This document shows, piece by piece, positions 4,726 through 43,674 of a stretch of DNA of 64,000 nt (the stretch's first letter is position 1; every line of letters begins with the position of its first letter). Origin of the DNA: a virus. The DNA is taken from the IMG/VR virus record IMGVR_UViG_3300047476_000792, positions 26,403 through 90,402 of that record; one strand, written 5' to 3'. The notes beneath the pieces were generated by a model, which made no database searches, was not told the origin of the DNA, and saw only the letters and a program-made list of their open reading frames with translations. A program made the translations under genes and the position numbers.

Positions 4726-5190
4726 TTTTATATCTTTGAAGATCTCTTGGGATATTTTCTTATATTTTTCCCGCAAATCCTTTGGACAATTACCAATACG
4801 GAAGTGGATTATACCATTAAAGAAACTATCATCGAATAAGACTCCGTGGCGCATTTGTTCCAAGGTTTCCATATACGACATCGTCCATTTAGTTTCACAA
4901 CAATGTAAAATTGTACGTTTAAATATGTCTGGACCGTATTTTTTAAGAATCTCTTTCAAATCGTTTGAACTACCATAGTATTTTTTCCAATCAGATTCTT
5001 TCATTACTCGACGACTACGAGTTTTACCTTTAAGGGGTTTTAACTTAGTATTACTCCAGAATATTTTCTTTCCTAAGTATTTTGTCGGTTTATCTTTAGG
5101 ATAATCCTCGGGAATATTTACTATCTCTATAAGATATACAAATCCTAAATAATCATCTATATTTTCTGGAATATTTTCCCATTCGTTCAT
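4723..5190 (-). CDS. SegE-like GIY-YIG nuclease
   Basis: A 155-residue protein matching the GIY-YIG pattern: GFVYLIEI near the start, KYLGKK as the YIG-like strand, then a basic stretch (KGKTRSRRV), YYGSSNDL, and a helix with MSYMETLEQ that can supply the metal-binding Glu. This is the arrangement in phage SegE-like homing endonucleases. Here it is a late gene in a packed cassette beside a terminase-like ATPase, so besides homing it could supply a DNA-cutting function to that neighbour; this is inference. Its TAA stop forms part of the next late promoter. Confidence 0.7.
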   Translation of the reverse strand: MNEWENIPENIDDYLGFVYLIEIVNIPEDYPKDKPTKYLGKKIFWSNTKLKPLKGKTRSRRVMKESDWKKYYGSSNDLKEILKKYGPDIFKRTILHCCETKWTMSYMETLEQMRHGVLFDDSFFNGIIHFRIGNCPKDLREKYKKISQEIFKDIK

Positions 5191-5208
5191 AAACTTTATT
5201 TATGAACG
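5184..5208. repeat. perfect 10-bp inverted repeat around a late promoter and start codon
   Basis: CGTTCATAAA (5184-5193) and TTTATGAACG (5199-5208) with a 5-base loop. On the minus strand it spans the upstream stop codon, the TAAATA hexamer and the ATG at 5190, so it could act as an operator or an mRNA hairpin. Confidence 0.55.
5197..5202 (-). promoter_or_regulatory. late promoter hexamer TAAATA
   Basis: Minus-strand TAAATA, 6 bases before the ATG at 5190. The TAA at 5200-5202 is also the stop codon of the upstream 206-residue gene. Confidence 0.7.
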
Positions 5209-5820
5209 TTTTTTGCGTTTTCTACGTCTTTTTCCTATAATATAAGGAACCCGTGCATCGGATGTATCATAGAGACCGTCATTTCCCAGAACAGATGCAA
5301 CAGATATATCTTCTTTTATGTTCTTCTTTTTCTTAGGTTTCCTCTGAGGTTTAGCTGGATTGTCGAATTCCGCACCTATTGCGGCAAATAGTTGATCATA
5401 ATTGGCATCCCGTGAAAACTTCTCAGGAACTACAGAAATGTCATATAACATTTCTAAATCCCCCAATGCATTTTTCTGTTTATCGGTTAAACTTTGTGAT
5501 GCAGTATATTTTAGTTGTGGTGTATATTGTGTCACATCTTTATTAATCTTAATCCAACCCCTATTAAGGAGATAACCAATCGCTAGAATCATTTCAGAAG
5601 AATGATCTGTCTTGTCTGATATATTCTTTTCATAGAAATCTGTAGTATAATTAACTATGCTTTTTATTATTCTTATTGCATCAGAGCCGTGCTGTTGCCA
5701 GCGAACAGGCCGAACAATGCCAGAAGGACTTACCCAAAATCCATAAGGGCATTCATCAGGAAGTTCAGCAAACGACTCTGCAAGTATTTTTCTTATGAAT
5801 CTATCGAAATTTTCTGTCAT
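5200..5820 (-). CDS. hypothetical late protein, 206 aa, basic C-terminus
   Basis: The start at 5820 (MTENFDRFIRKILAES) is preferred over an upstream in-frame ATG at 5853 because a TAAATA hexamer lies 7 bases before it. The N-terminus belongs to a short motif shared with the late proteins starting at 57144 and 59721. The middle is globular; the C-terminus is very basic (GKRRRKRKKRS) and could bind nucleic acid. First gene of the late cassette with the GIY-YIG and terminase-like genes. Function unknown. Confidence 0.65.
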   Translation of the reverse strand: MTENFDRFIRKILAESFAELPDECPYGFWVSPSGIVRPVRWQQHGSDAIRIIKSIVNYTTDFYEKNISDKTDHSSEMILAIGYLLNRGWIKINKDVTQYTPQLKYTASQSLTDKQKNALGDLEMLYDISVVPEKFSRDANYDQLFAAIGAEFDNPAKPQRKPKKKKNIKEDISVASVLGNDGLYDTSDARVPYIIGKRRRKRKKRS

Positions 5821-5827
5821 ACTATAA

Positions 5828-5833
5828 TATTTA
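5828..5833 (-). promoter_or_regulatory. late promoter hexamer TAAATA
   Basis: Minus-strand AAGTAAATA, hexamer 7 bases before the ATG at 5820. It lies directly beside the -35 box of the divergent uvsY early promoter. Confidence 0.7.
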
Positions 5834-5834
5834 C

Positions 5835-5863
5835 TTGAAATCATATATAACATATGATATTTT
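5835..5863 (+). promoter_or_regulatory. sigma70-like promoter of uvsY operon, predicted leaderless
   Basis: TTGAAA (5835-5840), 17-base spacer, TATTTT (5858-5863), exactly 6 bases, then the uvsY ATG at 5870. Confidence 0.65.
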
Positions 5864-5869
5864 TGATAA

Positions 5870-6271
5870 ATGAAAAGTGCAGCAGAAATTCAAGAAGAAT
5901 TTGTAAAAGAATTGGAGATGGATACACAGATGGACTCTACCAATGTGATGGATAAAATGCTATCATCTGCGAATATTAAACAAAAATGGCTTATACGAAA
6001 AATACGAGCACAGAGAAGATTATATGATTTGGTAGCGGTAAAGGACGGATTTGTAAATGATAAACTTAATAATGACAATCCTTTGAAATTGTCAAAGGCG
6101 GTTATGGCAGCAAAAGCAGGAAGCGATCCTACTTATAGAGAGTTACAAAAGGAGATCCAAGATCAAGAACTTCTTGTAGAATATTTAGATGGAACAGTTA
6201 ATAAAGTCTTAACTCAGATGAGTTATGAATTTAGAGCGATTGTTGATTTGATGAAGTTGGAACAACTGTAA
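5870..6271 (+). CDS. uvsY: UvsY-like recombination mediator
   Basis: A 133-residue protein, close to T4 UvsY (137). The order of features agrees with UvsY: an early DST segment, a basic helix with KQKWLIRKIRAQRRL, and a C-terminal helical part (LVEYLDGTVNKVL ... FRAIVDLMKL) resembling the hexamer-forming end of UvsY. UvsY loads the UvsX recombinase onto gp32-coated single strands; uvsX and gp32 are both in this window. It heads an early operon that continues to uvsW. Sequence identity to T4 is low, so the call rests on length, pattern and context. Confidence 0.75.
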   Translation: MKSAAEIQEEFVKELEMDTQMDSTNVMDKMLSSANIKQKWLIRKIRAQRRLYDLVAVKDGFVNDKLNNDNPLKLSKAVMAAKAGSDPTYRELQKEIQDQELLVEYLDGTVNKVLTQMSYEFRAIVDLMKLEQL

Positions 6272-6272
6272 T

Positions 6273-6845
6273 ATGAGTGGTAGATGTCGGCCTAATATAA
6301 TTTCTCCATCTCCACCGAAAAGGAGATATAGCAACACCAATGATTCGTATTATATAGATGTTGTCAGGAATATGTATAATCACCCACCATCACTAAGTGC
6401 TTGTTATAATACTGAAAATTTGATAGTATCTGGTATATGCGGAGTAGATCAGCTTCTTAATCACTACGAATCTTCTAGTAATTCATCTAATAGATTTAAT
6501 ATTTATTACCGTAAATGTGAATATTGTTCCACGATAAACAATATTTCCTATGAAATCGATAATTGTGAATCGTGTGGAGCACAGTTTGGATTGCTCGATT
6601 TTCTTGATAATGCACGAATAGCGGAATTGTTACAACCTCACTACACCTCACAAGATACTTCATCATATAAAAGACTTGCACTTGAAATAATAGAAAATGC
6701 ATTCAAGAAGCATATTGATTTTCATAAGAATGTTGATGATATTGTTAATTGTTTAATTGGTCTGCCTGAAGAGAAGATTGCTTCTCTTATAGGATATTTA
6801 ATAGGTTTTATTAAGCCTGATAAGATGTTCAAAACTAATGAGTGA
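6273..6845 (+). CDS. hypothetical protein with Cys4 zinc-ribbon, 190 aa
   Basis: Starts one base after the uvsY stop. A four-cysteine zinc-ribbon-like segment (CEYC ... CESCGAQ, about residues 76-96) sits between a disordered N-terminus rich in Ser, Pro and Asn and a helical C-terminal domain. Its TGA overlaps the GTG start of uvsW by four bases, implying translational coupling. The position inside a recombination operon suggests a DNA- or protein-binding accessory role, but I do not recognise the family. Confidence 0.65.
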   Translation: MSGRCRPNIISPSPPKRRYSNTNDSYYIDVVRNMYNHPPSLSACYNTENLIVSGICGVDQLLNHYESSSNSSNRFNIYYRKCEYCSTINNISYEIDNCESCGAQFGLLDFLDNARIAELLQPHYTSQDTSSYKRLALEIIENAFKKHIDFHKNVDDIVNCLIGLPEEKIASLIGYLIGFIKPDKMFKTNE

Positions 6846-8269
6846 CTGAAAAGATAAAGGTTGATGTAAAAAATAAGAATAGCACATTACAGTGCTCTCC
6901 AACTATTTTAAAACTTATTAGAGAAAAATTCTCTATAAAAAACCCTAACTATCAATCGCGCAAGTTTGCCGATAGAATATATGCAATAACCCCTTCTGGC
7001 GCATTCCAGACGGGGATTTGGTATGAAATTGAAGGATTTATTCGTGGTTTAAAAATCCCTGTCGAAGTTGAGATATCCGATGAATTCAGGAAACAGTTTA
7101 CACCTTCTACTGGCATAACCGAAATATCAAAAATTCCAGGGTTTACTTATTATGATTACCAAGAAGATACTTTAAAAGAGTTTTTAACCACTGGAAGGGG
7201 TATATCTATACTCGCTACAGGGGCAGGAAAATCGGTTTTAATTGGAGGACTGTGTAAAACTTTCCTAGATCATCGACCTGATTATAAAATATTAATCAGT
7301 GTCCCTAATACGTATCTATTAAATCAGTTATATGATTCGTTCATATATGAATTCGGAATTGCCTCTGTTACTAAATGGGGTGATAAAAATGTTCCAGATC
7401 TTTCCAAGAATATCATCATTGCCAATAATCAGATACTGGTATCTGATATAAAGGCAACACTTTCAATTGTTCAAGATTTTGATGTGGTGGTGGTGGATGA
7501 GGTTCATCGTATAGGCGATAAAAAAACTCAAATAGGAAAAGTCATACATAATATTCAGACACCGCATAAGTTTGGATTAACGGGAACGCTTCCAGATGAC
7601 ATCATGACGATATGGAATGTTCTAGGAAAGATCGGACCTATAGTATATGAGAAAAATTCTTATGATATTCGTAAGAAGGGAGCAATCACTGATATCGAGG
7701 TAAATGTCATCATCTGTAATCACCAAACAAAACCGGTGTTTTCACGAATAACTAACGAACCAACGGAGAAATATAATCAGGAATTAGATTATATTATGAA
7801 TCTTTCTTCGCGAAATGAAGTTGTTAAAAAAATAGTTCATAGCCTCTCGGGTAATATACTCGTAATGGTTGATCGTATTGATTACGGCAATACCTTGCTA
7901 GATATTCTTAAAAAAGAAGGAAAGAAAGTGTTCTTCATACAAGGTGACACTCCTATAGAAGAGCGTAATAGAATAACAAATCTCATGGAAAATGAGACTG
8001 GTATTATCTGTATCGCAATGAGTACCATATTCTCCACAGGTGTATCGGTCAAGAATCTACATTATGCCGTGTTTACATATATAGGAAAATCTACAGTGAA
8101 AATAGTACAATCAATCGGACGAACAGTTCGAAAACACGAAACAAAAAATAAGGCTATTATCTTCGATATAGCCGATAATTTACCATATTCCTTCAAACAT
8201 CTTAAAGAGAGATTAGGAATATATAAAGATCAAAGAATAGAATATAAAACAACAACAATAAAAATATGA
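6842..8269 (+). CDS. uvsW: UvsW-like SF2 DNA helicase
   Basis: A 475-residue superfamily 2 helicase (T4 UvsW has 503). Walker A ATGAGKS at 125-131, DEVH box at 219-222, motif III LTGTLP shortly after, and motif VI QSIGRTVRKH near the C-terminus. UvsW unwinds R-loops and Holliday junctions and promotes the switch from origin- to recombination-dependent replication. The start is GTG at 6842, overlapping the previous TGA; its own TGA overlaps the next ATG (ATGA), so three genes are coupled. Confidence 0.9.
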   Translation: MTEKIKVDVKNKNSTLQCSPTILKLIREKFSIKNPNYQSRKFADRIYAITPSGAFQTGIWYEIEGFIRGLKIPVEVEISDEFRKQFTPSTGITEISKIPGFTYYDYQEDTLKEFLTTGRGISILATGAGKSVLIGGLCKTFLDHRPDYKILISVPNTYLLNQLYDSFIYEFGIASVTKWGDKNVPDLSKNIIIANNQILVSDIKATLSIVQDFDVVVVDEVHRIGDKKTQIGKVIHNIQTPHKFGLTGTLPDDIMTIWNVLGKIGPIVYEKNSYDIRKKGAITDIEVNVIICNHQTKPVFSRITNEPTEKYNQELDYIMNLSSRNEVVKKIVHSLSGNILVMVDRIDYGNTLLDILKKEGKKVFFIQGDTPIEERNRITNLMENETGIICIAMSTIFSTGVSVKNLHYAVFTYIGKSTVKIVQSIGRTVRKHETKNKAIIFDIADNLPYSFKHLKERLGIYKDQRIEYKTTTIKI

Positions 8270-28961: not shown

Positions 28962-28964
28962 AAT

Positions 28965-28996
28965 AAAAAACCCGCTAATTTCTTAGCGGGTTTTTT
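28965..28996. terminator. bidirectional rho-independent terminator
   Basis: A6, CCCGCTAA (28971-28978), 4-base loop, TTAGCGGG (28983-28990), T6. The symmetry serves both convergent operons (ending at 28961 and 29012). Confidence 0.9.
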
Positions 28997-29011
28997 ATTA
29001 GTCGTTTATCT

Positions 29012-29422
29012 TTATGCGGTAGCTTCTTTTAGACCTTTATAATAGAGTTTTTCAACTTCTCCTACGTCTTGAATCTTATTAAAGAGTTCTTCAGCAGCTT
29101 TAATAAACTCTTCTTTCTTCTGTTTTTCCAGCTTTGCCAGTTCTTGTTTCTTTGCTTCAAGAGCCTTTGTCATTTCTGCAAATTGCTTCAGAAGGTTGCG
29201 AAGTTTTTCTTTCGTATCCTTCAATACCACATCCCGCTCCTCGCTGAAAAGTTCCGAGATGACACTTCCTAATTGATCTTTTGGAACCTTATTAGGTATC
29301 TTTAGGTTTTCTTTACCACCTACCACAGCCACTAAACGGTCCAGTGCTTGTGTGAATTTCTTTTCGACTTTTCCAGTCTGTTCCTGTTCGTTGGGTACTT
29401 CTTCTGTATTTTGGTTACTCAT
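29012..29422 (-). CDS. coiled-coil hypothetical protein, 136 aa
   Basis: Begins acidic and flexible (MSNQNTEEVPNEQEQTGKVE), then a long Lys/Glu-rich coiled coil (about residues 75-125). Ends KLYYKGLKEATA, without the peptide shared by its three upstream neighbours. Similar small charged coiled-coil proteins occur in T4-like phages as scaffold or host-interaction proteins; no specific match is claimed. Confidence 0.65.
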   Translation of the reverse strand: MSNQNTEEVPNEQEQTGKVEKKFTQALDRLVAVVGGKENLKIPNKVPKDQLGSVISELFSEERDVVLKDTKEKLRNLLKQFAEMTKALEAKKQELAKLEKQKKEEFIKAAEELFNKIQDVGEVEKLYYKGLKEATA

Positions 29423-29449: not shown

Positions 29450-29911
29450 TTAGAATTTGATCGACTCAATATCACCTAGATCTAGAGGAATGTCAAGAGG
29501 CTGTGCGATAATCTTCGCATTTTTTTCTTTAAGAATAGTACGCAGTCTTTCGTTTTCTATATATTCTGCATCTATCTCCGATTTTAAATCTTCTATCTCC
29601 GATTTTAAATCTTCTATCTCTCCTCTTAAATAACGCATTTCTCTTTCAAGAGTGTTATACGCCATTTCATACCCTTCTATCTTTTTATTACGTTCGTTTT
29701 GAAGTTCTTTCTTATGTTGTTTTTCTAAGGCATTTACCACATTTTTTAATTTTTCAGTATGGTCGTTATCAATATCATTTAGTATTTGTTTGAGACGTAG
29801 GTCTACGTGTTTAAAAAGTCTAGTTCCTACATCATCTATTGCAACATGATCCCATGCACTTAATATATGCATTTCATCAAAAATATTCTTAAATTCTTCC
29901 TGGGTTATCAT
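29450..29911 (-). CDS. coiled-coil protein with C-terminal DIESIKF tag, 153 aa
   Basis: A long coiled coil includes two exact 7-residue repeats (EDLKSEI twice, about residues 100-113). The last residues, DIESIKF, match those of the two genes upstream (SIENIKFKI and DIENIKF) but use different codons, so the peptide seems kept by selection. The start overlaps the preceding stop. Confidence 0.7.
   Translation of the reverse strand: MITQEEFKNIFDEMHILSAWDHVAIDDVGTRLFKHVDLRLKQILNDIDNDHTEKLKNVVNALEKQHKKELQNERNKKIEGYEMAYNTLEREMRYLRGEIEDLKSEIEDLKSEIDAEYIENERLRTILKEKNAKIIAQPLDIPLDLGDIESIKF
29571..29621 (-). repeat. tandem 21-bp repeat in coding sequence
   Basis: Two exact 21-base copies (29571-29591 and 29592-29612) and a partial third encode heptads of the coiled coil. 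Likely expanded by slippage; copy number may vary between relatives. Confidence 0.8.
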
Positions 29912-30099
29912 ATTTTAAATTTTATATTTTCTATACTTCTAAGATTAAAAGTATCTTCTGTCGGATATTCGCCCAGATATTCTTTCAACATTAATTCGCC
30001 ATGATAATTTTCGCATAAATTAATCAATGCATCAATATAATCAGTTCCTTGATATGGGAATTCATTTTGAATTTTTTGTATCTCTTTTCGCAAATCCAT
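29908..30099 (-). CDS. small protein with C-terminal SIENIKFKI tag, 63 aa
   Basis: Helical small protein (MDLRKEIQKIQNEFPYQG...). The end shares the SIENIKF peptide with its neighbours. About 25 bases around its stop are nearly identical to the end of the gene upstream (ATAGAAAATATAAAATTT), pointing to recent duplication of this junction. Confidence 0.65.
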   Translation of the reverse strand: MDLRKEIQKIQNEFPYQGTDYIDALINLCENYHGELMLKEYLGEYPTEDTFNLRSIENIKFKI

Positions 30100-30102
30100 A
30101 TT

Positions 30103-30468
30103 TTAAAATTTTATATTTTCTATATCAGAGAAATCCAACTCAGGCATGTTGATAAATTGTCTATAATTAAGATTGCTTAGAATTTCATTCAATGCCGTAA
30201 TCCTAGTTTCATTCGGAACCCCCAAATCATCGAATTGTAATTTAGAAATATAATCTCCGAACGGTGAAGCCGATAGAGATATAATCGGCTTCATTTTATT
30301 AGTATAACGAAATACACTATTACTTCCAAAAAAGTCTCCAAATATATACTTGGCATCAAATCCACGAATAGCACTCATACATACGATTTCTGCCCGTAAT
30401 TCCTTGGATGTGGGAGATTTTAAGTTTAATTTTGAATTTATAAATTTTATAAGATATGGTAAATCCAT
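30103..30468 (-). CDS. hypothetical protein with C-terminal DIENIKF tag, 121 aa
   Basis: Globular protein (MDLPYLIKFINSKLNLKSP...) ending FSDIENIKF. First gene of a four-gene minus-strand operon divergent from the DNA polymerase gene and expressed from a promoter sharing its -35 box. Similarity of its end to the polymerase C-terminus (SLDDLFG) suggests sliding-clamp binding, an inference. A gp33-like role can be considered but is not supported by the rest of the sequence. Confidence 0.65.
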   Translation of the reverse strand: MDLPYLIKFINSKLNLKSPTSKELRAEIVCMSAIRGFDAKYIFGDFFGSNSVFRYTNKMKPIISLSASPFGDYISKLQFDDLGVPNETRITALNEILSNLNYRQFINMPELDFSDIENIKF

Positions 30469-30473
30469 GACAC

Positions 30474-30501
30474 ACTATATACTCGATCTTTGTTCTTGCA
30501 A
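30474..30501 (-). promoter_or_regulatory. sigma70-like promoter sharing its -35 box with the gp43 promoter
   Basis: Minus strand: TTGCAA (30501-30496), 16-base spacer, TATAGT (30479-30474), 5 bases, ATG 30468. TTGCAA is its own reverse complement, so it serves both directions. Confidence 0.6.
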
Positions 30502-30530: not shown

Positions 30531-33113
30531 ATGCTAAGAAATACTTTCTATGACAGAAGACGATCAGTTATTCATCACTGGTTATATGACGAAACCGGAG
30601 AACCTGTATATCGTAAAGAACAATTTAAACCATTTTTATATATTCCATCGGTTGATCCTAAAAAGATCGATGCCTATGGTATTGATGACAAGCCGTTGAC
30701 TAGAAGAGAATTCATCTCTGAATGGGAACGTAATGATTTCCTCAAAACCTATAAAGGTGTTCCGTATTTTAATCTCCCTCCAACACAACAATATCTTTTA
30801 GAAAAATATTATACAAAAGATATTCAGGAATTAACCAGTCAACCTCTAAGAACCTTCTTTTTTGACATCGAGGTTATTGCTGATGAATTTCCCGATCCGA
30901 AAGATGCCAAGTTCCCATTAACATCTATTACAATATATGATACTAAAACCAAAAAGTATTATGTATGGGGAACTAAGCGATATGATCATTATTCATGTAA
31001 AGATCACCTAGAAGGAATAGAACCCGAAGAAATCGTATATACATATTGTATTTCAGAAACCGATCTATTAAAGAAACTTATTAAATTTTGGAGAGCAAAT
31101 TTTCCAGATTTAATAGTTGGGTACAATTCTTATAGTTTCGATATTCCTTACATCATTCATAGAATAGACCAAGTTTTTGAACCAGGAAAAGGTTCGGTAT
31201 TATCGCCCGTGGATTATTTGTATGGTCAAGAGAAAGAGAATAAATTCTCGCAAGTTTATACAGAATATACCATAGGCGGAATTTCTCACCTTGATTATAT
31301 GGTTTTGTACAAAACATTTACTCCGGGTGAACGCGAAAGTGATTCTTTAGATTATGTTGCAAAAGAAGAAGATATTGGTGGTAAACTTGATTATGGTTCC
31401 ATGTCTTTAAACGAATTATGTAACAAAGATTGGAATAAATTCATCAATTATAACATATGGGACGTAAAGATTCTTATGCTCATTGATGAAAAGAGGAAAT
31501 ATCTTGATGTTGCACGATTCTCTGCATTCAGCGGATTCTGTAACGTTGATAAAGCACTAGGGAAGGTTGCTATTATCGGTGGTATTATTGCAAAGCAAGG
31601 TTTAATGAATAATCAAATCATAACCACCCAAAGTGGGGGTGAGCAACAGACTATTCCTGGTGGATATGTGAAAGATCCCGAGCCTGGAATGTATGAAAAT
31701 ATTGTAGTTATGGATTTAAATTCACTTTATCCGAATACAATTATCACTCTTAATATTTCACCTGAAACAAAGGTAGGACGTGTTATAAAACAGGATGATT
31801 CTATTGTTAAAGTTGATTTTGTAAAAGCTCGCAAAATTATAGATATACCAAAAGATAAGTTCTTACCTCTTATCGAAGAGAAGGGATGGGCATTATCTGC
31901 CGCTGGAATTCTATTCAGTCAGGATAAGAAAGGGTTATGTGCAGAATTCGCAGACGGTCTTTACCAGAAGCGCAAAAAGGTTAAAAAGGAAATGTTTAAA
32001 TGGGAGAATAAATTATCTACTATAGAAAAGGGTAGCGATGAGTATAAATCCATAAAAAAATTGATTTCTCAATTAGATACTGAGCAGTATCTTTATAAGA
32101 TTTTGTTAAATTCTACTTATGGTGTTCTTGCAAATCGATTCTTTCCTCTGTACGACCTAGATTGTGCAAAAAGTATCACGCTCACGGGTCAAGCCCTTAT
32201 TAAGCAATCTGATAAAATAGCCAACGAATATGTTCAGAAGGAGTGGAATTTAGAGAAGAAGGACCGTGTGATTGCCGAAGATACCGACTCTGCGATTATT
32301 TGTATTGATGATATTTTGAAGTTATCAAACTCTACAATCGTCGATAGTAACGGAGATTTAACTCCTGAATTTATTGAAATTGAAAATAAAATAACTGAAA
32401 ACCTCAATAAAGGTGTAGTAAAATGGGCAGAAGAAACCCTCAATACTAAGGATTGTAGATTTGAATTTAAACGCGAATCTGCATGTCCAAAAGCTATTTG
32501 GGTAGCTAAAAAGCATTATGTTATGGATATTCGTAATTCCGAAGGTGTGAAAATGAATAAATTCAAATATAAAGGGCTTTCTGTAGTTAAGTCGTCCTTT
32601 TCAGAAAAAACTCGTAATATCACCAAATCTATCGTGAAGGGTATTTTCGATGCACCTGATAAGAAGGTGGCAGATGACCATTTTTTCAAATCCTATGATG
32701 ACTTTTTTACTATGCCCCAGAATGATGTGTCAACCCGCTCATCTATTAAGGTTTTAGATAAATGGGAAGCATCTTCTAATGGTCTTGATACTGGCTCTGG
32801 TTGCCCACAACATGTTAAATTCTCTTTATATTACAATCATTTGGTGAAATTGCTAAATCTTGATAATAAATATCCTTTAATTGAAGGTGGTAAAAAAATA
32901 AAATTAGCATATGTTAAACCTAATAAATATAATATTGCAGGAATTGCATATCTGGACGAGCTTCCCGAAGAATTTGAATTGGAAATTGACAGAGAGGCTA
33001 TGTTTGATAAATGTGTGGTTAAATGTTTAGAACCTATATTTGATGCTCTTAAATGGAATGTACCAAACCCTAAAAAACAACTTGAGTATTCGTTGGACGA
33101 CCTTTTCGGTTGA
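30531..33113 (+). CDS. 43: family B DNA polymerase (gp43)
   Basis: 860 residues (T4 gp43 898). Exo I motif FFFDIEVIADEF with D112 and E114; further exonuclease strands at 195-205 (VGYNSYSFDIPY); polymerase motif A DLNSLYPN (395-402), motif B KILLNSTYG (523-531), motif C DTDS (584-587). All catalytic residues are present, so it should polymerise and proofread. The C-terminal SLDDLFG is a likely clamp-binding peptide for gp45. Confidence 0.97.
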   Translation: MLRNTFYDRRRSVIHHWLYDETGEPVYRKEQFKPFLYIPSVDPKKIDAYGIDDKPLTRREFISEWERNDFLKTYKGVPYFNLPPTQQYLLEKYYTKDIQELTSQPLRTFFFDIEVIADEFPDPKDAKFPLTSITIYDTKTKKYYVWGTKRYDHYSCKDHLEGIEPEEIVYTYCISETDLLKKLIKFWRANFPDLIVGYNSYSFDIPYIIHRIDQVFEPGKGSVLSPVDYLYGQEKENKFSQVYTEYTIGGISHLDYMVLYKTFTPGERESDSLDYVAKEEDIGGKLDYGSMSLNELCNKDWNKFINYNIWDVKILMLIDEKRKYLDVARFSAFSGFCNVDKALGKVAIIGGIIAKQGLMNNQIITTQSGGEQQTIPGGYVKDPEPGMYENIVVMDLNSLYPNTIITLNISPETKVGRVIKQDDSIVKVDFVKARKIIDIPKDKFLPLIEEKGWALSAAGILFSQDKKGLCAEFADGLYQKRKKVKKEMFKWENKLSTIEKGSDEYKSIKKLISQLDTEQYLYKILLNSTYGVLANRFFPLYDLDCAKSITLTGQALIKQSDKIANEYVQKEWNLEKKDRVIAEDTDSAIICIDDILKLSNSTIVDSNGDLTPEFIEIENKITENLNKGVVKWAEETLNTKDCRFEFKRESACPKAIWVAKKHYVMDIRNSEGVKMNKFKYKGLSVVKSSFSEKTRNITKSIVKGIFDAPDKKVADDHFFKSYDDFFTMPQNDVSTRSSIKVLDKWEASSNGLDTGSGCPQHVKFSLYYNHLVKLLNLDNKYPLIEGGKKIKLAYVKPNKYNIAGIAYLDELPEEFELEIDREAMFDKCVVKCLEPIFDALKWNVPNPKKQLEYSLDDLFG

Positions 33114-36785: not shown

Positions 36786-38141
36786 ATGGCAAAACTAGAC
36801 CTAGACCTGTTCGAAAAAATTATAATTCAACAATGCCTTAAAAAAGATTCCAATTATGTAGCGAATATTATAGATTATTTAGATAAAGACCTCTTCAAGA
36901 ACAATGATATTGCAAATATTATCAATATTATAAAAGATTTCTATATAGAACGATCATCAATTCCCACATTAACAGAACTTGCAGCAAGAATCACAACAAG
37001 CTCTCTTAAAGAATCCTTACAGACTGTCGTAGGCTTTATTAAGAAATTGGATAGTGAATATAACGAAGATGAATTAATCGCGAATACTGAAACATTTATC
37101 AAACAGAGAAAGTTTGGTAAGCTTATGGAAACTACTATTGATAAGAAAGTTTCTGAGAAGGAGTACTCTATTGAAGAGTTTCAGGCGGAATCGGAAAAAA
37201 TTCATTCTATATGTTTGATCGATGACTTAGGATTAGATTATTTCGAAGATCAACATAGAATTAAAGAATACCTCCAGAAGAAAGATAACTTATTATCTAC
37301 TGGATATAAAGGATTGGATGAAGCCTTTGGTGGAGGATTCCAAGCAGAAGGAAAGGCTATTTATGATATTGGAGGAGAAACCAATGTAGGAAAATCCATT
37401 TTCCTTGCTAACATTGTGGTCAATGTTCTTATGCAGAATAAGAAAGTTGTCATTATATCTCCTGAGATGTCGGAAATGCGATATGCAAAGCGTATTTCTG
37501 GTATTTTAACAGGAATTGCTATCAACACACTCGCAGATAATATAGAAAATTTTGATGAAAAGGTCGATGAATTTGTAAAAAAATATGAATCTCGTCTTAT
37601 TATTAAAGAAGTCCCTACTAAAGGGGTATCTGCAAAGAATATCTTAGGATATCTACTTAAATTGAAGAATCGTAAAGGATTTATTCCCAACCTTATATGT
37701 ATTGATGGACATGCATTGTTGAAACCTAGTATAAATCAAGGGAGTACACATGCTAATATTCAATATATTGTTCAAGAGTGTCGGGGTATAAGTTATGTAT
37801 TTCCCGCACCAGTATTGACAGTTGCCCAATTGAATAGAACTGCCCATAAAACAAATAATCCTGGATTGGATAGTTTAAGTGGTAGCTGGGACTCAATTGC
37901 GGATCTTGACGGACATGTTAATATCTGGCAAACAGACGAAGATCGGGAAGCGAATATCATTCGCTTTGGTGGTAAGAAAGCTAGAGACGGTGCAAAAGGA
38001 GCAGAAGGATTTCTTACTATTGATTATGACACCCTAAAACTGACTGAGGAAGATGATATGATGGCTTATGCAGACAATAATAATGATCAGAGAAGTATAA
38101 ATAACATTTTAAACTTTGATAAGTTAGTGGGAGATAGTTAA
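36786..38141 (+). CDS. 41: gp41-like DnaB-type replicative helicase
   Basis: 451 residues (T4 gp41 475). N-terminal helical domain, then the RecA-like domain: STGYKGLDEAFGGGF, Walker A GETNVGKS (197-204), VVIISPEMSEM, Walker B-like LICIDGHALL, then QLNRTA and GSWDSIADLDG. It unwinds the fork on the lagging strand and works with gp61 and gp59, both in this window. Its TAA stop is built into a late promoter for the next gene. Confidence 0.93.
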   Translation: MAKLDLDLFEKIIIQQCLKKDSNYVANIIDYLDKDLFKNNDIANIINIIKDFYIERSSIPTLTELAARITTSSLKESLQTVVGFIKKLDSEYNEDELIANTETFIKQRKFGKLMETTIDKKVSEKEYSIEEFQAESEKIHSICLIDDLGLDYFEDQHRIKEYLQKKDNLLSTGYKGLDEAFGGGFQAEGKAIYDIGGETNVGKSIFLANIVVNVLMQNKKVVIISPEMSEMRYAKRISGILTGIAINTLADNIENFDEKVDEFVKKYESRLIIKEVPTKGVSAKNILGYLLKLKNRKGFIPNLICIDGHALLKPSINQGSTHANIQYIVQECRGISYVFPAPVLTVAQLNRTAHKTNNPGLDSLSGSWDSIADLDGHVNIWQTDEDREANIIRFGGKKARDGAKGAEGFLTIDYDTLKLTEEDDMMAYADNNNDQRSINNILNFDKLVGDS

Positions 38142-40569: not shown

Positions 40570-41168
40570 CTGTTGAAAGAGAGATGCGCCAAGGTCTGGC
40601 AGGAAGCCAAGGTCTGCGATATAATCGCACAGATTTTAGAAATTTTTTAAATGGGCATCCTAATGTCCAACAGCCACAACCGATGCACCCTGCGCATCAA
40701 TATCATGGGCAGTATAATCATAATTACGGTCCTCCTCCGCAACAATATTATCCGCAACAGGGATTACCGCCCCCACAAGGAGGAGATGATTTGGTTATTC
40801 CTGAGGGAACTTTGAATGGACCTATAAAGCAATACGTCGTTCCTGCGCATTTACAACTCCCAAATCAAGGTGGACCACAAGTAGCACCTATGATGGAACC
40901 CTCTGGAGGATTTGTGATGCCTAATTACAATGCCTCATCTCAAAAAGTGTACCTCGAAGATGAACAAGAATTTCGCGATGCTCTTATTAAAGAAATTAAA
41001 TCACAGAAAAAGTCATTAAATAAGTTGATTAAGACTAATGAGCAACTTATACTAACAGTAGACACTCTCACTGCTAAGATCAAAGAGATGGCCGAAAAGC
41101 TTAAAATAGAATTAGAACCTGAACCCATACCTGAAAATATAATAGATGAAGTTAAAGATAAATCCTAA
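40533..41168 (+). CDS. Pro/Gln-rich hypothetical protein, 211 aa
   Basis: Starts at ATG 40533 (an upstream TTG at 40524 is less likely). Residues about 45-85 are Pro/Gln/Tyr/His-rich (QPQPMHPAHQYHG, PPPQQYYPQQGLPPPQGG), surely disordered; the last third is a coiled coil (LIKEIKSQKKSLNKLIK ... LTAKIKEMAEKLK). The start codon is presented in the loop of a long hairpin. Such layouts occur in scaffold or linker proteins; no homologue recognised. Overlaps the sliding clamp gene. Confidence 0.6.
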   Translation: MDDNTDIAILAASVEREMRQGLAGSQGLRYNRTDFRNFLNGHPNVQQPQPMHPAHQYHGQYNHNYGPPPQQYYPQQGLPPPQGGDDLVIPEGTLNGPIKQYVVPAHLQLPNQGGPQVAPMMEPSGGFVMPNYNASSQKVYLEDEQEFRDALIKEIKSQKKSLNKLIKTNEQLILTVDTLTAKIKEMAEKLKIELEPEPIPENIIDEVKDKS

Positions 41169-41892
41169 GACGTTTATAACAGAGTTTATAAATCCAGTTG
41201 TTGAAATAAATAAAGAAGGGAGGATGGCGGTATTTTACGATGAAAATCGTAAAGAAATTTATTCTGTATCAGGAACAAAAACAGAATCGATAAGATTGTA
41301 TAATACATATAAATGTTTTGATGTGATTGATCCGTGTAATAGAATTTCGCTGAATGTCTTACGCCTTGTAAAAGGTTTGCAATGTGTTGGCGCTAGCGAG
41401 CAAGTAATAGATTTGGACATAAATAATTCGAATAAATCTTGCTCCTTTACTTCAAAAGATATAAAGTTCAACATTAGGCTTATTGATGATAAAATGGTAA
41501 CAGTGCCAAAGTTTAATGTTGAGGTTTTTAGGAAATTTTCCGTAGATCATACTATCGCAGTAGATGCTGAATCTGTAATTAACATTAAACGTGCATTAGA
41601 TTTCTCATCCGAAACTGAGAAGTTTTATATTGAACAAGAGGGAACCGATGTTTACCTATTCTTCGGAGATAAGAGTACTACTTCTAATCACACGGACTCT
41701 ATTAGGGTTTTAATCTCTGAGGGTATCAGCAATAATATCCCATCTCATATTTATGATATAGATATTCTTAAATTGATTCTGAAAACAAAAAACGATTTTT
41801 CTATAAACTTAAACAATAATGGTATTATGTTTATAGAGATACAAAATAATAACTCAAACTTAGCATACATAACAACTCCACTTAAAAAATAA
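41146..41892 (+). CDS. 45: gp45-like sliding clamp
   Basis: 248 residues (T4 gp45 228). Pattern of two beta-clamp domains: FITEFINPVVEINKEGRMAV, LYNTYKCFDVIDP, SLNVLRLVKGL..., then the second domain from IAVDAESVINIKRALDFSS to IYDIDILKLILK and MFIEIQN. As a trimer it would tether gp43 and, as in T4, activate late transcription with gp55. Based on fold pattern and its place among replication genes; gp44 is not in the window and gp62 lies at 60882. Confidence 0.7.
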   Translation: MKLKINPKTFITEFINPVVEINKEGRMAVFYDENRKEIYSVSGTKTESIRLYNTYKCFDVIDPCNRISLNVLRLVKGLQCVGASEQVIDLDINNSNKSCSFTSKDIKFNIRLIDDKMVTVPKFNVEVFRKFSVDHTIAVDAESVINIKRALDFSSETEKFYIEQEGTDVYLFFGDKSTTSNHTDSIRVLISEGISNNIPSHIYDIDILKLILKTKNDFSINLNNNGIMFIEIQNNNSNLAYITTPLKK

Positions 41893-42903: not shown

Positions 42904-43674
42904 ATGTCATTCTCTAATTTAAATAAAGTTTGGACTCCTGATACACTTTCTTTATATCTATCTAAAATAAAAGCACCCGAATGGGCAACAAAAATATGTA
43001 TACATCACACTGCAAGCCCATCACTGGCACAACGTCCTAAGGGATTTACTATGCAGCACATAGAGAATATTAAAAGTTTTTATGAGAATGATCTGAAATG
43101 GAATAGGGGACCGCATCTATTTGTTGATGAAGATCAATTATTCGGTATGACACCATTTACAGAAAAAGGCATTCATGCACCATCCTTCAACTCAAATGCT
43201 ATAGGTATTGAAGTTTTAGGTGATTATGACTCCGAAGATCCTAAAAGCGGTAGAGGTTTGCAATGCTGGGAAAATACAGCGGCATCTGTTCGAGTATTAA
43301 TAAAATGGTTAAATATTCCTATAAATGACGAAACTATTGTATTCCATAGGGAATGTGCAGTGACAAAACGAACAACAAAAAAATCATGTCCAGGAACAAA
43401 AATCTCCAAAGACTGGTTCTTATCTCTAGTCAATAAATCAACCAATATAGATATTAAACAATCAGTTGTTAAAGATGATAAAGTCTTCGTACCTGTTGTG
43501 AAATATCTAACAGAAGAAAAACAAGTTCCTTATAAAGAGGCAATTACAAAACTTAAAAAATCTGGTAATGTATTTTTATATGACGGACATTTACTAGAGT
43601 TTGCGCATTTTGATACTGTAACACAGTCAACAGTAGCACCTAAATCTGAAATAGACGACATATTCACTTGCTAG
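42904..43674 (+). CDS. N-acetylmuramoyl-L-alanine amidase endolysin
   Basis: 256 residues. Amidase_2/PGRP zinc motifs: ICIHHTASP (first His ligands), GIHAPSFNSNAIGIEVLG, and VFHRECAVTKRTTKKSCPGTKI (second His and Cys ligands). A C-terminal segment of about 80 residues (KYLTEEKQVPYKEAITKLKK) may be a small wall-binding or repeat part. No signal peptide, so a holin would be needed; none was recognised in this window. Its own late promoter fits a lysis role. Confidence 0.88.
   Translation: MSFSNLNKVWTPDTLSLYLSKIKAPEWATKICIHHTASPSLAQRPKGFTMQHIENIKSFYENDLKWNRGPHLFVDEDQLFGMTPFTEKGIHAPSFNSNAIGIEVLGDYDSEDPKSGRGLQCWENTAASVRVLIKWLNIPINDETIVFHRECAVTKRTTKKSCPGTKISKDWFLSLVNKSTNIDIKQSVVKDDKVFVPVVKYLTEEKQVPYKEAITKLKKSGNVFLYDGHLLEFAHFDTVTQSTVAPKSEIDDIFTC

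Follow-up and report, generated by a model that had tools for sequence, protein, structure and literature searches.

A C-terminal peptide shared by small, unrelated phage proteins accompanies a conserved coiled-coil gene in two phage lineages

Introduction

The clamp-binding tails of phage T4 are short hydrophobic/acidic C-terminal motifs that are carried by unrelated proteins, are interchangeable, and dock to one ring (PMC2988020, PMC7892883). The cassette of small genes described here resembles them (gp43, gp55 and gp33; PIP-box type) in placing a short hydrophobic/acidic motif at the C-termini of unrelated proteins of one phage, but its consensus is different, extends over about 11 residues, belongs to small accessory proteins encoded beside a further gene (D), and also occurs in a phage where no homologue of the clamp encoded at 41146 was detected (Table 1). 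The T4-type pattern SLDFL[FYL] is absent from the cassette, whose tails agree with SLDFLFG, SLDFLYEAND and TLDFLL only in how hydrophobic and acidic residues are spaced.

Three other systems offer partial parallels. Encapsulin cargo-loading and microcompartment encapsulation peptides are short terminal tags shared by unrelated proteins encoded beside the receptor gene. The cassette likewise has a short terminal tag common to unrelated proteins and a putative receptor encoded beside them, but D is a small coiled coil rather than a shell, the module has no capsid-like receptor, and no sequence likeness is claimed. Bacterial SSB proteins carry acidic tips (e.g. DDDIPF), in which a free terminal F is needed. 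The cassette tails are also acidic with an I/L-x-F ending, but they extend past the F in half of the cases, and the penultimate position is basic or Q. Finally, phage morons have their own promoter-like site and terminator, are inserted between core genes and are patchily present, as is this unit, but here the protein set is tied together by a common tail. A literature search on such a shared tail found nothing relevant.

Results

The window analysed here is the whole 64-kb stretch spanning positions 26403-90402 of a virus record of 90,402 bases. It contains three adjacent minus-strand genes, A, B and C, whose tails are alike over 11 residues (Table 1; gene ends PELDFSDIENIKF for A, DTFNLRSIENIKFKI for B and DIPLDLGDIESIKF for C). 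An initial annotation had reported consecutive small genes ending in a common peptide: the ORFs and their endings are as it described, and the similarity is longer, at about 11 residues. It had also called the three proteins unrelated, and as far as tested by alignments to a profile of the A family their bodies indeed look unrelated, the aligned part being limited to the last 15 residues of B and the last ~33 residues of C.

Table 1. Features of the A-D unit, its flank and the candidate clamp, in window coordinates.
Feature	Position	Strand	Description
Gene A	30103..30468	-	121 aa; homologue in L144 (132 aa); C-terminal similarity to L150 tailed protein (126 aa)
Tail of A	30106..30138	-	LDFSDIENIKF, up to stop codon
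Gene B	29908..30099	-	63 aa, ending in FNLRSIENIKFKI; no counterpart in L144
Tail of B	29917..29949	-	FNLRSIENIKF, then KI
Gene C	29450..29911	-	153 aa coiled coil; 4 nt overlap with end of B
Tail of C	29453..29485	-	LDLGDIESIKF, up to stop codon
Gene D	29012..29422	-	136 aa coiled coil, conserved partner gene, 3' of C
D segment QDVGEVEKLYY	29039..29071	-	Near D C-terminus, weakly tail-like
Promoter-like TTGCAA-N16-TATAGT	30474..30501	-	Upstream of A; predicted from sequence
Terminator-like hairpin	28962..28999	.	17-bp symmetric; between glycosyltransferase (+) and D (-)
DNA polymerase, T4-like family B	30531..33113	+	Flank, outside module; ends SLDDLFG
gp45/PCNA-fold sliding clamp	41146..41892	+	Candidate partner, judged unlikely

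Pair scores among the three tails were 28, 30 and 41, the highest being that of A and C. When 106,720 other 11-mers drawn from four phage records were compared with a tail, no more than 2 equalled the weakest of these pairs, and the A-C score was never reached. Random sets of tails gave a top score for adjacent pairs of at most 31 (95th percentile 26), and in a similarity ranking of 521 tails those of A, B and C stood far above all other C-termini.

The initial annotation had further argued from synonymous codons that selection acts on the peptide. The argument holds for A and C, where different codons encode 5 of the 8 common residues (those in common being GAT, twice, and AAA), and fails for A and B, where all 6 common residues use identical ones. 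The codons of the latter pair sit within a repeated gene junction, ATAGAAAATATAAAATTT(T)AAAATATG, which runs into the next start codon, so that A and B alone could reflect a DNA duplication and are weak evidence. Elsewhere, none of 4 tail codons is identical between the A homologue of L144 (see below) and C of the window.

A-D are predicted to form one transcription unit, sited between a glycosyltransferase gene and the DNA polymerase gene. Searches of A, B, C and D against Pfam, PHROG, NCBIfam and PADLOC returned no full-protein match above cut-off and only weak, mostly coiled-coil matches. The structure of A predicted on its own, without relatives, was useless (pLDDT 37). The 64-kb window shows no enrichment of the exact T4 late promoter, TATAAATA. 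Across the window (1-64000), the leaders at gene starts are AT-rich, and most lack a Shine-Dalgarno sequence.

In relatives whose polymerase is 60-71% identical (L005, L006-L009, L141, L142, L143, L145 and L146), the glycosyltransferase gene is followed by the polymerase gene after a gap of 5-70 bases, with no gene between. The site is thus empty in most relatives, which indicates that the A-D unit is an accessory insertion. One relative, L144 (polymerase 69% identical), has a minus-strand unit at the same place. Its A homologue (full-length BLASTP E 3e-17) is 31% identical in the body and 6/11 in the tail (IDFSTIEKMQF+KV). A 67-aa protein is C-like at both ends, lacks the coiled coil and ends LDLCEIAKIRF+D (body 25%, tail 6/11); it is probably a homologue of C. 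B is missing, and D is 61% identical to that of the window. The predicted TTGCAA-N16-TATAGT site precedes A with the same hexamers and spacing, and D is followed by a comparable hairpin whose sequence differs, so that both phages have a unit with its own predicted signals between two core genes that other relatives keep side by side.

When viral contigs were scanned with I-E-N-I-K-F-stop as the sole query, 21 stretches were returned, among them L150, where the tailed protein ends INFKTIENIKF. One base downstream of its gene lies a homologue of D over the full length (36% identity across 136 aa, E 1e-21), which weakly matches phrog_11752 (E 0.0012), a match not seen for the other D proteins. 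The major capsid protein encoded in the 94-kb L150 record is crAss-like (Crass_capsid in Pfam, E 8e-127). A polymerase profile search found no match in this record, and a narrow 3-sequence profile of the clamp of the window's clade found no homologue of the 41146 clamp. The pair of tailed gene and D is absent beside the corresponding resolvase gene of the cultured crAss-like phage cr4_1.

Together, six proteins from three phages carry the motif phi-[DN]-[FL]-x-x-I-[EA]-x-[IM]-[KRQ]-F plus 0-2 residues, every carrier gene lying directly upstream of D. These are at least three independent instances of the module (window phage, L144 and L150), all metagenomic, and on sequence grounds the peptide is conserved in both lineages of phage within a module of tail and D. 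The view that selection acts on the peptide is strengthened by L144 and the crAss-like L150, where tails were kept while the bodies of homologues diverged. Because codons often differ, and because the tail outlasts both the bodies and the coiled coil of C, the peptide appears to be what selection keeps.

D is present in every record with a cassette tail. It was not found in the related records G003, G004 and G005, nor in G006 and G007, which have single DIExIKF endings only. None was found in the cultured phages of the collection, and about 790 Bacteroidota genomes gave only partial coiled-coil matches. The strict ending DIExIKF-stop, searched in 257 Gb of genomes as well as in viral contigs, gave scattered single matches, and two in one stretch only in this virus. 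The initial annotation had counted a lack of the peptide in related phages as evidence against its reading; the outcome favours the peptide, as most relatives are without the whole module but the ones that have D also have the tail. The tails of L032 and L028 were judged to be chance, their records being without D. Searches of viral contigs with the A, B and C proteins retrieved, apart from chance matches (L014 and L015), nothing but fragments of this same virus at 100% identity.

Discussion

Judged from its conservation on unrelated proteins, the shared tail probably serves as a tag for docking on one common partner. D is the best receptor candidate because it is the only constant companion of the tails. 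We accordingly propose that small, fast-evolving proteins each carry the same C-terminal linear motif, that the motif would dock on one shared partner, and that D, encoded directly downstream, may act as a multivalent coiled-coil hub for different small effectors, candidate roles of such a complex being host takeover, anti-defence or replication support. That A-D are an accessory module whose tails dock on a shared partner, most likely D in this role, seems to us an even call. A broader version, in which a mobile module of T4-like and crAss-like phages uses the D hub to recruit changing, unrelated effectors through one tail motif, new effectors joining by gaining the tail, is more tentative, and we put it somewhat short of even. 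Co-occurrence in one operon is no proof of contact between tail and D, and a weakly tail-like segment of D itself would also fit docking to a third partner.

Such a third partner would be a host or phage protein outside the module, onto which all four proteins dock, the tails and VGEVEKLYY of D being variants of one motif. This segment lies 8 residues before the end of D and has conserved counterparts in D homologues (VGEIEKVYY, INQLETEYY), and the movement of the module between unrelated phages would favour a partner that is common to their hosts or carried along. Nevertheless, the segment ranks only 9th of 521 tails in similarity to the cassette tails, within chance expectation, and we consider this possibility unlikely, if a serious one.

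A more familiar candidate is the sliding clamp, which the initial annotation had suggested, together with the alternative of another common partner. The protein at 41146 has no PDB sequence match, and profile comparison with T4 gp45 was unsuccessful at the sequence level, so its identity was settled by fold search. In a model built with three relatives the first half is poor and residues 123-248 match sliding clamps, the best matches being T4 and RB69 gp45 in peptide complexes (Z 10.9; 6drt, 1b77); its identification as a gp45/PCNA-fold clamp was therefore correct. The polymerase that flanks the unit (PHROG E 3e-190; PDB matches to RB69 and T4 polymerases) is accompanied in the window by genes for UvsX, UvsY, SbcC/D-like proteins, a helicase and a gp32-like protein (below Pfam cut-off). 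If the tails bound the 41146 clamp as those of T4 gp43, gp55 and gp33 do, one could point to the conserved polymerase tail SL[DE]DLFG, to the register S/D-[IL]-[DE]-x-[IL] from the end that it has in common with the cassette tails, to RB69 gp43, which ends FDMFDF with the same spacing as IENIKF, and to the tolerance of T4 proteins for tail swaps (PMC2988020). However, the module occurs in the crAss-like L150, in which homologues of the window clamp and polymerase were not detected by the profiles described above; the conserved stretch reaches four residues upstream of the clamp-like part; the tails have K, R or Q where T4 has F, Y or L, position 10 being basic or Q; and clamp-bearing relatives mostly lack the tails, which track D instead. 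The pattern is also non-specific: an unrelated endolysin-like protein (42904-43674) ends SEIDDIFTC, which fits the T4 clamp-binding pattern as well as the polymerase tail does. The pattern is therefore cheap, and a warning against calling tails by it. The common partner is thus probably not the phage sliding clamp, a role for which we see little prospect. The other half of the suggestion, another common partner, has fared better, as the tails track D and are kept in diverged homologues.

Neutral spread would explain the likeness by DNA rather than peptide, gene ends or joints having been duplicated. The identical codons of A and B, together with their common repeat that reaches into the following start codon, speak for it, as does the tail DNA of L150 and B, alike at 28/33 nt. 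Nevertheless, the peptide is kept with different codons in C and in the A and C homologues of L144, and the L144 tails are kept while their bodies are down to 25-31%. Neutral spread seems already largely excluded by these comparisons, and we hold it to be very improbable. Mimicry of the SSB acidic tip, by which the tails would recruit host repair proteins, is hardly credible: A, C and the L150 protein (3/6 tails) do end in acidic residues followed by I-x-F with a free terminal Phe, but 1-2 residues follow the F in B and in the A and C homologues of L144, and position 10 is basic or Q.

Most unrelated small phage proteins lack annotation, and a shared tail with a conserved neighbour provides a handle for finding and grouping them. 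The tail has already worked as a search key, having led from the window phage to a crAss-like phage that carries the same module. Tail and D neighbour together predict a physical partner, and the arrangement suggests that phages assemble effector sets on a common hub through tail acquisition.

Several other features of these genomes were observed along the way. The C-termini of the helicase (36786-38141 in the window; also L005, L006 and L144) are conserved as ILNFDKL, ILDFDSL, ILDIDSL and ILDFDSL, and could dock to the clamp. The DnaB-like helicase of L006 (8587-10977) has 796 aa and that of the window 451 aa, which suggests that the former contains an intein of about 345 aa. In L145 (1056-5188), the T4-like polymerase gene is split by ~1 kb of extra coding sequence, with a 359-aa ORF between the two polymerase parts, which looks like an intein or an intron with a homing gene. 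To the left of the window (L010, positions 5112-8126 of the virus record), consecutive minus-strand genes start MKLDELYKIIEE, MKLQELLQSLIRL and MKLQELFDLINIP, and in a fourth gene of the run MKFNELYNIL lies a few residues from the start; this common N-terminal peptide is reminiscent of the capsid-targeting sequences of T4.
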